Below are positions 4,031-8,114 of a DNA stretch of 8,114 nt, in pieces. The number at the start of each line of letters is the position of its first letter. Position 1 is the stretch's first letter. Made by a program: the position numbers and the translations under genes. A model generated the notes under the pieces. That model did no database searches. It saw nothing but the letters and a program-made list of their open reading frames with translations, and had not been told where the DNA came from. Origin of the DNA: DATKZS01 sp035527835 [NCBI: bacterium] (lineage in GTDB: Bacteria; RBG-13-61-14); contig DATKZS010000160.1 in assembly GCA_035527835.1 (NCBI GenBank), positions 1-8,114 of the forward strand, read 5' to 3'.

Positions 4031-4047
4031 GCAGGCGAGACGCCTGC
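4031..4047. repeat. REP-like perfect hairpin between xsc and ftsY
   Basis: GCAGGCG-AGA-CGCCTGC is a perfect 7-bp stem with a 3-base loop, 14 bases upstream of the ftsY ribosome binding site. The unit with its flanks (GGCCGCAGGCGAGACGCCTG) looks like a GC-rich intergenic repeat known to me from other bacterial genomes; copy number here cannot be judged from one window. Its neighbourhood would encode the false N-terminal extension of FtsY. Confidence 0.6.
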
Positions 4048-4079: not shown

Positions 4080-5810
4080 CTACTTCACGACCAGGTGCTT
4101 GTACTTGTCCAGGTACCTTACCGGCTTCTTGAGCGCGTCCCTGCGGAAGGGCTCGGCCAGGACCTTTTCGCCGCCCTCGATCACGGCCTCGATCACGGCG
4201 GGCCGGCCGCAGTCCACGGCATCGCGCACGGCTCCCTGCACGTCCTCGTACGACTCGATCCTGTAGCCCTTGGCCCCCATGTCCTCGGCCAGCTTGGCGT
4301 AGCTCGGGTTCCCGGGGAGGTTGGTGCCCACGAAGCGGTTGTCGTAGTAGTCAATCTGGTTCTTCTTCTCCGCGCCCCACTCGTAGTTCTGGAAGACCAC
4401 GGCGATGACCGGAATGTCCTCGCGCGTCGCGGTCATGACCTCGGAAAGCCCGCTGATGCCGTAGGCCCCGTCGCCCTGAAGACAGAACACCGGCGCGTCG
4501 GGCCGGCCGATCTTGGCGCCGATGGCCGCGCCGTAGGCAAAGCCGCAGTTGCCCCACGAGAGCGCGGAGATGTGTTGGCGCACGCCGTTGAACTTGAGGT
4601 ACGAGTTGCACATGGACGAGTTGTTGCCGATGTCGGTGGCCACGATGGCGTTATCGGGGATGGCGAGGGCGAGCTCATGGAGCAGTCGCCGCGGGTGCAT
4701 GAGCTTGGCGGTGGACAAAGACCACGATTCCAGCTCGTCGTTCCAGGTCTTCTTCTCCTTCTCCACTTCCTTGAGCCGCTCGCTCACGGGCTTTAGCCCG
4801 GGCTTTACGGCCTTGACCGCGGCCAGGACCTCGCGCGCGAACTCTTTAGCGTCCGCCAGGATGCCGAGCTCGACCCGCTGCGACAGCCCGAGCACTTTGT
4901 GGTCCACGTCCACCTGGATCACCCTGGCGTTTTGAGGCCAGTACTCGATGTCGTACTGCGGCAGCGTCCCGAACGGACCCAGCCGGCACCCGAGCGCCAG
5001 CACCACGTCGGCCTTCGCGATCACGCGCATGGCGGCCTTGGACCCGCAATAGCCGATGGGACCCAGGCCCAGCGCGTGGCCCTGCGGGAACGTGTCGTTG
5101 TGCAGGTAGCTGTTCGCCACCGGCGCCGTCAGGTATTCCGCCAGCGCCTTGGTCTCCTCGAGCGCGTCGCCGATGGAAACGCCGCCGCCCGCCAAAATCA
5201 CCGGATACCTCGCGTCCGCGAGCAGACGCGCCGCCGCTTCCACCTGCTCCCGCGAGCCGGGCCCCCGCTTCACCTCCGGCGTCTGGTAAATCTCGTCCTC
5301 GCAATCGCCGTAGAAATAATCGCGCGGGACGTTGAGCTGCGCCGGGCCGCACTCGGCCTTGGCCATGTAAAAGCAGCGCCGCGCCAGCTCGGCCATGCGG
5401 TCGGGCCGGTTCACCCGCACCTGGTACTTGACGCTCTTCTCGAACATGGCCATCTGGTCGAGCTCCTGGAATCCGCCTTGGCCGATGCCCTTGGAGCCGG
5501 TCTCCGGCGTGATCGCCACCACCGGCGAATGCGCCCAGAAGGCCGCGGTCAGCGCGGACACGAAATTGGCCGCGCCCGGCCCGTTCTGCCCGATGCAGCA
5601 CTGCGGCCGGCCGGTCACCCGCGCCAGCCCGTCGGCCGCGTGGCACGCCGCCTGCTCGTGAGCCACCGAGATGAACCGGATGCCCGCCGCCGGGAACAGA
5701 TCAAGCGCGTCCATGTAGGCCGAGCCCACGATCCCGAACACTTCCTTCACCCCCTCCGCCGCCAGGGTCTCGACCAGGGCCTCGCTGGAGGTCATTTTTA
5801 TCTTGGCCAT
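4080..5810 (-). CDS. xsc: Sulfoacetaldehyde acetyltransferase (thiamine-diphosphate enzyme)
   Basis: A 576-residue enzyme of the acetolactate synthase superfamily. Xsc cleaves sulfoacetaldehyde with phosphate to acetyl phosphate and sulfite, the shared step of taurine and isethionate degradation in the cytoplasm. The Pyr domain has the catalytic Glu52 in AHEQAACHAADG (50-61); the PP domain has GDGAYG (446-451) and Asn475 in FQNYEWGAEKKN, the ThDP-Mg site. Features favouring Xsc over acetolactate synthase include IGQGGFQELDQM (109-120), HNDTFPQGHAL (237-247), GYCGSKAAM (253-261), FGTLPQYDIEYWP (280-292), FVGTNL (493-498) and the C-terminal EPFRRDALKKPV (553-564), all close to my memory of characterised Xsc proteins. 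Length is usual. Start: ATG 5810, with AAAGGAG seven bases upstream; the longer frame to 5957 only reads repeats. It is divergent from a two-component pair. A related ThDP enzyme is the alternative. Confidence 0.88.
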   Translation of the reverse strand: MAKIKMTSSEALVETLAAEGVKEVFGIVGSAYMDALDLFPAAGIRFISVAHEQAACHAADGLARVTGRPQCCIGQNGPGAANFVSALTAAFWAHSPVVAITPETGSKGIGQGGFQELDQMAMFEKSVKYQVRVNRPDRMAELARRCFYMAKAECGPAQLNVPRDYFYGDCEDEIYQTPEVKRGPGSREQVEAAARLLADARYPVILAGGGVSIGDALEETKALAEYLTAPVANSYLHNDTFPQGHALGLGPIGYCGSKAAMRVIAKADVVLALGCRLGPFGTLPQYDIEYWPQNARVIQVDVDHKVLGLSQRVELGILADAKEFAREVLAAVKAVKPGLKPVSERLKEVEKEKKTWNDELESWSLSTAKLMHPRRLLHELALAIPDNAIVATDIGNNSSMCNSYLKFNGVRQHISALSWGNCGFAYGAAIGAKIGRPDAPVFCLQGDGAYGISGLSEVMTATREDIPVIAVVFQNYEWGAEKKNQIDYYDNRFVGTNLPGNPSYAKLAEDMGAKGYRIESYEDVQGAVRDAVDCGRPAVIEAVIEGGEKVLAEPFRRDALKKPVRYLDKYKHLVVK

Positions 5811-5817
5811 TACTTCA

Positions 5818-5839
5818 CTCCTTTCTCGGCACTGCCGAG
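5818..5839 (-). promoter_or_regulatory. Palindrome abutting the xsc Shine-Dalgarno
   Basis: CTCGGCA-G-TGCCGAG on the minus strand (5825-5839) is a perfect 7+1+7 palindrome and directly touches AAAGGAG (5818-5824). It may be a regulator operator or an RNA hairpin beside the ribosome binding site (6-bp stem, 3-base loop). The symmetry is certain; the role is inferred. Confidence 0.45.
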
Positions 5840-5884
5840 TGATCTCGTTGGCATTCAATTGTACCGGACTTTGGGGGGAGAGGA

Positions 5885-5962
5885 AAGGTTTGAGGTGTGA
5901 GGTTTGAGGTCTGAGGTATGACGTCTCGAACCTCAAACCCCAAACCTCAAACCTCAAACCTT
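5885..5962. repeat. Heptamer-built imperfect palindrome (GAGGTTT units)
   Basis: The left arm (5885-5919) is made of about five degenerate GAGGTTT units (also GAGGTGT, GAGGTCT, GAGGTAT). The right arm (5928-5962) is the inverted version, AACCTCA units, with a short centre of eight bases. Most positions pair; mismatches are mainly at the fifth to seventh base of each unit. The xsc frame extended past its true start translates this as repeated LRFETS/LRPQTS peptides. Confidence 0.7.
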
Positions 5963-5972
5963 CTCTGCTCTC

Positions 5973-6002
5973 TTGACATTAGAAGCCTCTAACGTCTACA
6001 AT
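5973..6002 (+). promoter_or_regulatory. Sigma-70 promoter of the two-component operon
   Basis: TTGACA (5973-5978, perfect -35), 18-base spacer, TACAAT (5997-6002, five of six). Transcription would begin about 6009, leaving a leader of roughly 30 bases that contains GGGGAG (6027-6032), six bases before the regulator ATG. Confidence 0.7.
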
Positions 6003-6038
6003 TCTCATGGAGCGGGTCAAGGAATTGGGGAGATCGGC

Positions 6039-6836
6039 ATGCGCATACTGGTGATCGAGGACGAGAAGAAGGTTGCGCGGTTCATTAAGCGCGGCTTGGA
6101 GGAGGCGGGGTACCTGGTGGACTCGGCCGCTGACGGCGAGGAGGGCCTGTACCTCGCGGAGATAGACGATTACGATCTGATCATCCTTGACCTGATCCTT
6201 CCGCGCAAGAACGGTCTCGAGGTTTGCAAGGAGCTCCGGGAGCAGAACATCAAGGTGCCGGTTCTGATCCTGTCGGCGCGGGACTCGGTGGAGGACAAGG
6301 TAACGGGCCTGGACATGGGGGCCGACGATTACCTGACCAAGCCGTTCGCGTTCTCGGAGCTTCTGGCCCGGGTGCGGGCGCTGCTTCGGCGCGGCGAGTC
6401 CATGGTGCCGGTCAAGCTGCAGGTGGCGGACCTGGCCATGGACACCGTGACCCACACGGTGAACCGGGCGGGCAAGGAGATCAAGCTCACCAGCAAGGAG
6501 TACGCGCTCCTCGAATACTTCATGATGAACGTGGGCAAGGTGCTCACCCGCACCATGCTCTCCGAGCACGTCTGGGACTATACCTTCGACACCTTCTCCA
6601 ACGTGATTGACGTTTACATCAATTACCTGCGCAACAAGGTGGACCGGGACTTCGAGCCCAAGCTGATCCACACCGTCCGGGGCGTGGGCTATGTGATGCG
6701 CGCCAAGCCCGAGGGCGAGGAGGAGGACGAGGAGGAAAAGCCCGACCGGGCGGCCCGGGAAAAGGCCCGCGCCGGCTTCCGTTCGCGCCACAAGGACACC
6801 GACGAGGATGAGGAGAAGGCGGAGAAGGGTGAGTAA
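6039..6836 (+). CDS. OmpR/PhoB-family response regulator with charged C-terminal tail
   Basis: A 265-residue DNA-binding response regulator. The receiver domain (1-about 115) has the acidic pair Glu7-Asp8, phosphoacceptor Asp51 in LIILDLILP, Ser79 in LSAR and Lys101 in LTKPF. The winged-helix domain (about 125-221) contains LTSKEYALLEYFMMN (150-164), SEHVWDYTFDTFSNVIDVYI (175-194) and the closing HTVRGVGYVMR (211-221), all typical of the CusR/PhoP/MprA-like group. Such proteins normally end here; this one continues with about 43 highly charged residues (GEEEDEEEKPD... to EKGE), probably disordered. Start ATG 6039 is supported by GGGGAG six bases upstream; the frame is open back to the -35 TTG, which is not a start. 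It is phosphorylated presumably by the kinase encoded 101 bases downstream. The target genes are unknown; xsc is a positional candidate only. Confidence 0.95.
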   Translation: MRILVIEDEKKVARFIKRGLEEAGYLVDSAADGEEGLYLAEIDDYDLIILDLILPRKNGLEVCKELREQNIKVPVLILSARDSVEDKVTGLDMGADDYLTKPFAFSELLARVRALLRRGESMVPVKLQVADLAMDTVTHTVNRAGKEIKLTSKEYALLEYFMMNVGKVLTRTMLSEHVWDYTFDTFSNVIDVYINYLRNKVDRDFEPKLIHTVRGVGYVMRAKPEGEEEDEEEKPDRAAREKARAGFRSRHKDTDEDEEKAEKGE

Positions 6837-6841
6837 GGCTT

Positions 6842-6864
6842 GGGCTTGGGCTTGGGGCTTGGGG
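6842..6864 (+). other. G-quadruplex consensus at the 3' end of the regulator gene
   Basis: Four G-runs (GGG, GGG, GGGG, GGGG) separated by CTT each time meet the G3+N1-7 consensus on the mRNA-like strand, starting five bases after the regulator stop. The last runs also serve in the 6848-6929 hairpin, so the two folds compete. Confidence 0.5.
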
Positions 6865-6934
6865 CTTGAGGCTTGAGGCGCGGGACGTGGGGCTTTTCCC
6901 TCAAGCCTCAAGCCCCAAGCCTCAAGCCCTTTTT
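6848..6934 (+). terminator. Repeat-built hairpin plus T-run, terminator-like, inside the operon
   Basis: The arm 6848-6878 (GGGGCTT/GAGGCTT heptamers) pairs with 6899-6929 in the opposite sense. The 31-base arms differ at one position, which would still be a G-U wobble in RNA; the loop is about 20 bases. TTTTT (6930-6934) follows at once, three bases before the kinase ATG. This has the layout of a Rho-independent terminator, although its stem is far longer than usual. It ends exactly between regulator and kinase, so it could lower kinase expression relative to the regulator. Confidence 0.5.
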
Positions 6935-6937
6935 ACC

Positions 6938-7987
6938 ATGAGTAAATCCCGGGAAAAGTTTTCGGGGCTGGCCGTGGCGGGCACCGCGCTTATCGCCGCG
7001 GCCTGGTTCGGCCTGACGCTCATGCTGTCGCGGCCGCTGGGGTCGTGGCCCAGCCTGGTGTCGCTGGCCGGGTTGGCGGCCTTTATCGCGGTGTGCTCGT
7101 ACCTGGTCGGGAGCGCGGCCTTTTGGCCGCTGAGGCGGACGCGCGAGCTGATGCAGTCGGTCTCCGGGATGGGGTTTCGGGACCGGCTGTATGTGGAGGA
7201 CACGGACGACGACGCGGGCATGATCCAGCTTGAGCTTAACGGGCTCCTGGACCGGCTGGAGGACGCGCTGGCCCGACAGCGGCAGTTCGTGGGCGCGATC
7301 TCGCACGACATCCGGACGCCGCTGACCATTATCAAGGGCGACATCGAGGTCGCGCTGATGCGGGCGCGGACGCCGGCGGAGTACCAGGAAATTTTGCGTT
7401 CCAACCAGGAGGAGGTGGAGCGCATCCGCCGCCTGGTGGAGGACCTGCTGACCCTGGCGCGGGCGGAACACGGCGAGCTGGGCCTCAACGTGCGCGCGGT
7501 CTCGCTGAGCACGATGGCGGTCGAGGCCCGGGAGAGCATGAACGACCTGTTCCGCAGAAAGGGCCTCACCCTGGACGTGTACATCGAGGGCGAGGTCCGG
7601 GTGGAGGGCGACCAGGCCAAGCTCCGCCAGGTCCTCCATAACCTGCTCGAAAACGCCGCCCACTATACCCCGGCGGGAGGGCGCGTCGAGCTCACCGTGT
7701 TCGCCGACGTCGAGCGCGACGAGGCCCAGATGCGCGTCCGCGACACCGGCGTCGGCATCTCGCCCCGCGACCTGCCCCACATCTTCGAACCATTTTACCG
7801 CGGCACGCCCTCGCGCCGCACCCGCCATGACGGCTACGGCCTCGGCCTCTCCATCTGCGACCACATCGTAAGGGCCCACGGCGGGTCCATCAGCGTGGAG
7901 AGCCGGCAGGGGCCGGGATCGGGGTCCACCTTCAGCGTCCGCCTGCCCCGCCGCCCCGCGGGCGCATCCTCCGCCGGAAGGGGTTGA
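6938..7987 (+). CDS. Sensor histidine kinase with very short external loop
   Basis: 349 residues from ATG 6938. Two transmembrane helices (about 11-30 and 39-61) are joined by only about eight residues (SRPLGSWP), so there is no periplasmic sensor domain. A HAMP-like linker follows (about 62-112). The HisKA domain has His123 in AISHDIRTPLT (120-130), and the ATPase domain has the N box HNLLENAAHYTP (234-245), DTGVGI (269-274), FEPFYRG (283-289) and GYGLGLSI (299-306). This is an EnvZ/CusS-type core, and the partner is the regulator just upstream. The short loop resembles intramembrane-sensing kinases. No Shine-Dalgarno precedes ATG 6938: the bases before it are the repeat and T-run. A GTG at 6887 in the same frame has GAGG eight bases upstream and would add 17 residues encoded by the repeat; it is the main alternative start. 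Confidence 0.95.
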   Translation: MSKSREKFSGLAVAGTALIAAAWFGLTLMLSRPLGSWPSLVSLAGLAAFIAVCSYLVGSAAFWPLRRTRELMQSVSGMGFRDRLYVEDTDDDAGMIQLELNGLLDRLEDALARQRQFVGAISHDIRTPLTIIKGDIEVALMRARTPAEYQEILRSNQEEVERIRRLVEDLLTLARAEHGELGLNVRAVSLSTMAVEARESMNDLFRRKGLTLDVYIEGEVRVEGDQAKLRQVLHNLLENAAHYTPAGGRVELTVFADVERDEAQMRVRDTGVGISPRDLPHIFEPFYRGTPSRRTRHDGYGLGLSICDHIVRAHGGSISVESRQGPGSGSTFSVRLPRRPAGASSAGRG

Positions 7988-7995
7988 AGAGATTT

Positions 7996-8114
7996 GGGGT
8001 TTGGGGCTTGGGGCTTGGGACTTGGGGCTTGGGGCTTGGGGCTTGGGACTTGGGGCTTGGGGCTTGGGCTTGGGGCTTGGGGCTTGAGGCTTGGGGCATG
8101 GGGCTTGGGGCTTG
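7996..8114 (+). repeat. GGGGCTT tandem heptamer array, continues past the window
   Basis: Seventeen consecutive units begin nine bases after the kinase stop. Thirteen have a GGGG run, two read GGGA, one GGG and one GAGG; linkers are mostly CTT, with one TTT at the left end and one CAT. The plus strand therefore offers repeated G-run/3-base-loop patterns that fit the G-quadruplex consensus several times over. Unlike the two upstream spacers, no inverted arm is seen within the window; one could lie beyond the edge. The left-end unit GGGGTTT bridges the GAGGTTT type (5885-5962) and the GGGGCTT type. Confidence 0.85.

Follow-up and report, generated by a model that had tools for sequence, protein, structure and literature searches.

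The 8,114-nucleotide (nt) stretch of contig DATKZS010000160.1 (assembly GCA_035527835.1) analyzed here, hereafter the window, contains arrays of tandem seven-base units (heptamers), all located in intergenic spacers and two of them arranged as head-to-head pairs. In their period, their excess in spacers and their convergent pairing, the arrays fall within the general class of intergenic heptameric simple sequence repeats. Genome G089, which encodes the best match to the FtsY protein of the window, contains period-seven arrays that lie in spacers, are built of homogeneous units which can change together, comprise about four units and frequently form convergent pairs. Our tentative reading, held with somewhat less than even confidence, is that the arrays are non-coding heptad repeats that would be made and renewed by misaligned slip-copying in steps of seven bases during replication or repair, and that are tolerated in spacers.

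Heptamer arrays in the window

Period-seven arrays were confirmed at positions 5885-5962, 6837-6929 and 7994-8114. Their units fit or nearly fit the consensus GRGGYTT; they fit neither GGGNATC nor GGGGAYT. The sequence GRGGYTTGRGGYTT occurs 14 times in the window, compared to a mean of 0.00 in 200 dinucleotide shuffles, and the single heptamer 30 times, compared to 5.56 in dinucleotide shuffles. Tandem Repeats Finder (TRF) reported period-seven arrays at 5886-5921, 5925-5961, 6837-6895, 6899-6928 and 7994-8114. The arrays that the original prediction placed in all three right-hand spacers are therefore real.

The first pair (5885-5962, no strand assigned) comprises two 33-nt arms, at 5885-5917 and 5930-5962, which match at 30 of 33 positions (91%) and are separated by a 12-nt loop. 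It is built of GAGGTTT and variants, sits between the divergent genes of a thiamine-pyrophosphate (TPP) enzyme and of a response regulator, and folds as RNA with -50.9 kcal/mol (z -8.25 against shuffles). A promoter-like sequence, TTGACA-18-TACAAT (11/12), lies at 5973-6002, directly downstream of this pair and upstream of the response regulator gene. The second array (6837-6929, no strand assigned) takes up almost all of the spacer between the response regulator and kinase genes. It includes a pair with 31-nt arms at 6848-6878 and 6899-6929 (30/31 matching, 97%; 20-nt loop), each arm being made of four units plus 3 nt, with GGGGCTT and GAGGCTT as units, and its predicted RNA fold reaches -72.7 kcal/mol (z -6.64 against shuffles). 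The expected head-to-head arrangement of two of the three arrays is thus borne out. The third, on the + strand at 7994-8114 (TRF), consists of about 17 directly repeated heptamers, GGGGCTT for the most part; it continues past the window end, and a partner search detected no inverted partner inside the window, which ends within the array.

All three arrays lie between or beyond genes. The idea that GRGGYTT units fill the three spacers was right as to the presence of the arrays, but not as to their extent or uniformity: the first array occupies 78 nt of its ~228-nt spacer, and GAGGTGT, GAGGTCT and GAGGTAT, found within 5885-5921, do not fit the consensus. A protein-coding reading was rejected in view of the gene content: open antisense frames span the arrays, but they overlap the kinase gene on the opposite strand. 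A literature text search with six array strings (13 to 17 bases) retrieved no paper.

Period, location and unit families in genome G089

G089 encodes the best match (66%) to the FtsY of the window both among 142 genomes, 130 of which gave matches, and among 386; matches in 26 named loci reached 59% at most, and the tree does not fix the position of the window sequence. As three genomes of the set represent the phylum of G089, at least 383 of the 386 belong to other phyla. Of the ~4.7 Mb of G089, 848 kb were sampled for period counts, and the sample was then extended to 1,219,168 bases (1.22 Mb). Genes were called with a simple gene caller, which can err.

The 848 kb contained 34 arrays of period 7 compared to 12 of period 6 (8 of them in genes), one of period 8, one of period 9 and none of periods 5 or 10-12. 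When the first 522 kb were block-shuffled once, no period-seven array appeared. Thirty-two of the 34 lie mostly outside called genes, though such sequence makes up 15.6% of the bases. With the three arrays of the window, this supports the predicted restriction to gaps between genes as a strong tendency. Over the 1.22 Mb examined we found 50 period-seven arrays, of many unit families and about four units each, so that arrays of this kind do occur beyond the locus under study. Elsewhere, two were found in 44 kb of G153 (one in a called gene) and one in 400 kb of G101. None came from the named loci (452 kb over all 26), from 315 kb sampled across 16 other genomes or from 75 kb of G154. The four loci L092-L095, which had been fetched for containing GRGGYTT and gave six arrays, were excluded from these counts.

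Many dissimilar units coexist within G089, which makes a single sequence-specific reader unlikely. The original prediction that GRGGYTT itself defines the family was not supported. Three successive GRGGYTT units are present in 5 of the 386 genomes, compared to 13 for the same pattern reversed (control), and the exact 21-mer is absent from G089. Three ATTTTRG units followed by ATT are found in 16 of the 386 genomes (G089 and 15 others), compared to 3 for the reversed control, with 54 matches in G089 (overlapping matches counted separately). Some heptamers recur across genomes, and GRGGYTT is not special among them. The reversed GRGGYTT control pattern occurs 47 times in G101, hence another heptamer family is probably abundant there. 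In a viral contig, an array (L001 10427-10531) passes segment by segment from GGGGCTT to GCGAGCT and then to GGTAGCT units.

Convergent pairing of the arrays

We defined the strand of an array as that with more G than C, and a partner as an inverted match no more than 130 nt away in which 12 or more of 14 bases agree. Two of the 55 arrays from the window and G089 were dropped because of equal G and C. In the remaining 53, an inverted partner was present on the convergent side in 25 cases and on the divergent side in one (L134 6966, whose strand call rests on few G and C); the control, flanks of unlike arrays, gave 28 of 2200. Scoring by local alignment in G089 alone resulted in 21/48 convergent versus 1/48 divergent. 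In these counts each member of a pair scores the other, and a single family, ATTTTRG, supplies 10 of the 19 pairs described below; counted by unit family, the ratio of convergent to divergent is about seven to one, weaker than the array-wise count. The 19 pairs, searched for on the convergent side only, comprise two from the window and 17 from G089 (one of them an array tied in G and C). Arm lengths range from 24 to 49 nt, with a median of 31 and four at 24 or 25, and loop lengths from 9 to 57 nt. Within L062 5576-5690 convergent pairs are nested, ATTTTRG arms lying inside AGGCATG-type arms.

Among GRGGYTT arrays in viral and other contigs, an inverted partner was found in 1 of 25. Pairing is therefore not a property of the GRGGYTT heptamer itself. 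For ATTTTRG, genome G326 showed a convergent pair in 4 of 6 stretches, and the same finder detected none in 15 stretches of ~400 bases from five other genomes. Outside the lineage of G089 and the window, pairing is patchy.

We also compared the two arms of each pair. ATTTTRG arms within a pair are no more similar than arms shuffled among loci (0.117 vs 0.113, P = 0.63, 10 pairs), and no mirrored unit order between arms was seen (Fisher P 0.90 for the 10 ATTTTRG pairs and 0.53 for 9 other pairs). These two results show no sign of in-register copying from arm to arm, which was rejected as a general explanation.

Length and ends of the arrays

In G089, 31 of the 50 arrays measure 27-34 nt and 3 at least 42 nt. 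The 25 arrays of contigs fetched by GRGGYTT show broad lengths (8 of 27-34 nt, 10 of at least 42 nt), in a set that was picked by three or four exact units, which favors long arrays. Among the 31 ATTTTRG runs of at least three units in G089, 26 finish with ATT, and 19 consist of precisely four units followed by ATT. In six other genomes, at sites chosen by the ATT-ending pattern, 16 of 25 runs have four units and 19 end in ATT; when runs of at least four units are considered, 15 of 21 end in ATT (binomial P = 5e-9 against 1/7, copies treated as independent).

Concerted change of units in a dispersed element of G089

Heptads are also contained in a larger element dispersed in G089 (39 matches, 30 fetched). 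At L134 18697-18840 and in the copies L196-L225, heptads are followed by a ~21-nt tandem (CCACCCCATTCTGCGCAGCAA). The heptads of this element, here named after its ACATAC motif, could be parsed in 27 copies, three lacking the anchor; 26 were used (L224 being out of frame), and the parse takes 28 nt. In 25 of the 26, other sequence adjoins the parsed 28 nt on the upstream side, starting right at four units, whereas L200 has two extra units there. The four-unit length of these arrays is taken from this upstream sequence.

The fourth bases of the four units read AAAA in 19 copies, CCCC in 4, and CAAA, CCCA and AAAG in one each (permutation P ~1e-5). The fourth position, which differs between copies, was picked after the data had been seen, and the in-frame test of the third base gave P = 0.26. 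As the choice was post hoc and the copies are related, the P value establishes a minimum of one concerted change rather than many. The 60-nt upstream flanks of the C-type copies L198, L199 and L209 are 85-97% identical to those of the A-type copies L197 and L204; the flank of L200, shifted by its extra units, was left out of the comparison. Over the 27 copies, units differ at 1.15 of 7 positions within an array versus 1.84 between arrays in different slots. At least once, then, the units of one array have changed together while their number stayed constant. With paralogous copies within G089 taken in place of orthologous spacers, these data support the earlier suggestion that the period of seven is kept while the unit drifts.

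Other repeats and genes in the window

The genes around the arrays constitute an ordinary set: a TPP enzyme (4080-5810, - strand; Pfam TPP_enzyme_N/M/C), the response regulator (6039-6836, + strand; receiver and Trans_reg_C, Pfam), a sensor histidine kinase (6938-7987, + strand; Pfam) and, further left, FtsY. The C-terminal tail of the response regulator (6711-6836) is long, of low complexity and rich in acidic and basic residues. A short palindrome, GCAGGCGAGACGCCTGC, is located at 4031-4047, in the spacer between the FtsY and TPP enzyme genes.

The left spacer also carries inverted repeats that are built like the heptamer pairs but from other units, none with an assigned strand. A hairpin of GTATGTC heptamers (2148-2206, repeats at 2152-2202; RNA fold z -7.06) uses the same unit as the GACATAC arrays of G089. 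A second hairpin (2514-2600, repeats at 2518-2596; TRF and inverted repeat; RNA fold z -6.09) has the head-to-head build of the heptamer pairs, but its units, AAGGATTTT, are of nine bases. Inverted CGCCAAG-type arms are located at 2246-2278 and 2425-2449 (feature 2246-2449), ~146 nt apart. Considering these hairpins of other short units, framing the window in terms of one repeat family is too narrow.

Origin of the arrays

The evidence favors a process that works in a seven-base register, accepts a wide choice of units, renews whole arrays and stops near four units. Slip-copying is the simplest candidate. Repeated misaligned copying during replication or repair synthesis, in a step depending little on unit sequence, would build and renew the arrays. 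Its usual product would be about four units, in many cases with an identical unit flanking a short stretch on either side and the G-richer strands directed inward. In genes, steps of seven, which is no multiple of three, shift the reading frame, and for this reason arrays would survive chiefly in spacers. We infer the copying step, as well as the absence of a selected function and a G089-like behavior of the genome from which the window derives. Several observations speak against slip-copying. Free slippage predicts decaying lengths and ends in any phase; instead, lengths of 27-34 nt predominate in G089 (31/50), and 19 of 31 ATTTTRG runs are four units plus ATT. The occurrence of the ATTTTRG pattern in 16 genomes, compared to 3 for its control, means that unit sequence is not fully arbitrary. 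Slippage alone yields no inverted partners. Unit order is unmatched between arms, so that in-register copying of one arm onto the other is not seen. Of all features, convergent pairing is the one explained least; it would be compatible with fold-back copying out of register, or with the extension of both 3′ ends at a break. Slip-copying accounts for neither the sharp ends nor the convergent layout, which gives a selected site, a dispersed module and end addition some probability.

If four heptads served a protein or ribonucleoprotein as binding or structural site, selection would keep both the number of units and the paired layout. The clustering of arms and arrays near four units, the abrupt start of other sequence at four units in 25 of 26 ACATAC copies, the sharp-ended (ATTTTRG)4ATT of G089 and six other genomes, and the four-unit preference described for Xanthomonas and Nostoc in the accessible part of Rehm et al. 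(2015; PMC4692102) are all consistent with it. We nevertheless regard such a site as unlikely, albeit a serious competitor: one genome contains many dissimilar units side by side, pairing involves only about half of the arrays, and no Rfam family matches the window above the gathering score. Somewhat more doubtful is that modules of ~31 nt, singly or in pairs, spread by copying within the genome and across lineages, as in repetitive extragenic palindromic (REP) sequences or miniature inverted-repeat transposable elements (MITEs). Several points favor dispersal: ATTTTRG x3 plus ATT has 54 matches in G089 and is shared by 15 further genomes of the set of 386; the four-unit arms at L062 5638, L100 14825 and L181 15333 are identical; array ends are shared in six other genomes; and the larger G089 element carrying heptads has 39 matches. 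However, the DNA between paired arms looks unlike by eye in the listed loci, save L112 and L114 (no systematic search for target duplications or transposases was made), and the concerted unit change inside one element is not explained by dispersal alone.

Hairpins selected in mRNA as terminators, processing or stability elements appear improbable. The window pairs do fold far below shuffles, five T follow the second of them, and 12 of the 19 pairs lie between co-directional genes. But one window pair lies between divergent genes, and orientation in general is background-like (co-directional in 31 of 41 oriented elements vs 401 of 585 spacers). Moreover, folding in 44 G089 elements does not surpass that in 376 other spacers (P = 0.55 corrected for GC content; slightly worse uncorrected, P = 0.02), and mismatches in co-directional pairs show no excess of wobble-preserving over breaking ones (13 to 15). 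A scan of 5700-8114 gave no terminator at the arrays, its loop limit of 3-8 nt being shorter than these loops. Even less probable is that a telomerase-like bacterial activity extends 3′ DNA ends at breaks by about four heptads, the two treated ends then being joined. If so, a junction with an identical heptad on both sides and G-richer strands inward would resemble a telomere-telomere fusion in its layout. Such a process would explain why pairs are convergent and not divergent, the near-fixed length and sharp ends, the same unit but unmatched order in the arms and the variable filler between them; different templates would yield different unit families. We give the least credence to G-quadruplex elements of the GGGNATC class, in which four G-tracts would account for four units. 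G-tracts of at least three are numerous at 7994-8114, and on reading the sequence four intact tracts are present there and not in the first pair, which consists mostly of GAGG units. Arrays whose units (ATTTTAG/ATTTTGG, GACATAC) are unable to provide four G-tracts of three also usually have four units, which speaks against a general G-quadruplex cause. In individual arrays such as 7994-8114, a G-quadruplex role could still hold.

Comparison with known heptamer systems

The arrays can be set beside two other kinds of repeats. The short tandemly repeated repetitive (STRR) heptanucleotides of cyanobacteria are likewise short tandem heptamers scattered in spacers. REP sequences, bacterial interspersed mosaic elements (BIMEs) and MITEs are likewise intergenic, palindromic and repeated in the genome. 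REP and BIME sequences go with a linked RAYT transposase and a GTAG-type foot, and MITEs with a conserved interior and target-site duplication. The arms described here differ in consisting of tandem heptads with many sequences, and inspection by eye showed no conserved interior.

The original prediction considered the arrays to be of an undescribed kind. This does not hold, as heptamer arrays with convergent pairs have already been reported in Xanthomonas: the accessible part of Rehm et al. (2015; PMC4692102) describes GGGAATC heptamers with 70 (Xcc) and 75 (Xac) convergent pairs, as well as GGGGA(T/C)T heptamers of Nostoc with few pairs only. The preference for four units in both is linked there to G-quadruplexes. 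The Xanthomonas repeats resemble the arrays studied here in being tandem heptamers, mostly intergenic, with a four-unit preference and many convergent inverted pairs. The same pages cite three heptanucleotides in Calothrix PCC7601, so that several unit families per genome are not new in themselves.

Other reports, in their accessible parts, also concern intergenic heptamers. TAACTGA direct repeats occur in marine Beggiatoaceae, some Cyanobacteria and Bacteroidetes by a mechanism given as unknown, and a proposal is recounted according to which seven is the length contacted by a polymerase (MacGregor, 2015; PMC4679880). They share with our arrays the intergenic location and the recurrence of one unit in distant lineages, and differ in that only one unit is used, mostly located immediately ahead of start codons, and in that the 169 sets of the main genome are almost all direct, with one indirect. 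In the excerpts of the SPADE study (2018; PMC6344855), heptamers are the commonest intergenic tandem repeats of prokaryotes, with no clear functional clue; the arrays agree with these in period and in their place between genes, whereas pairing, unit families and length do not come up in the excerpts.

New here are the many paired unit families in one genome, the four-unit, sharp-ended length, and the presence of ATTTTRG in 16 of 386 genomes. Our literature search, which left most subscription journals outside, retrieved no account of many paired unit families in one genome. G089 separates the features that are kept (period, about four units, convergent layout) from the one that is free (the unit). 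This separation makes both a single sequence-specific reader and G-quadruplexes poor candidates for a general cause, and provides loci at which the alternatives can be tested. Whereas the accessible part of Rehm et al. (2015) presents one G-rich unit type per organism, in G089 many families, several of them without G-tracts, share the same paired layout.

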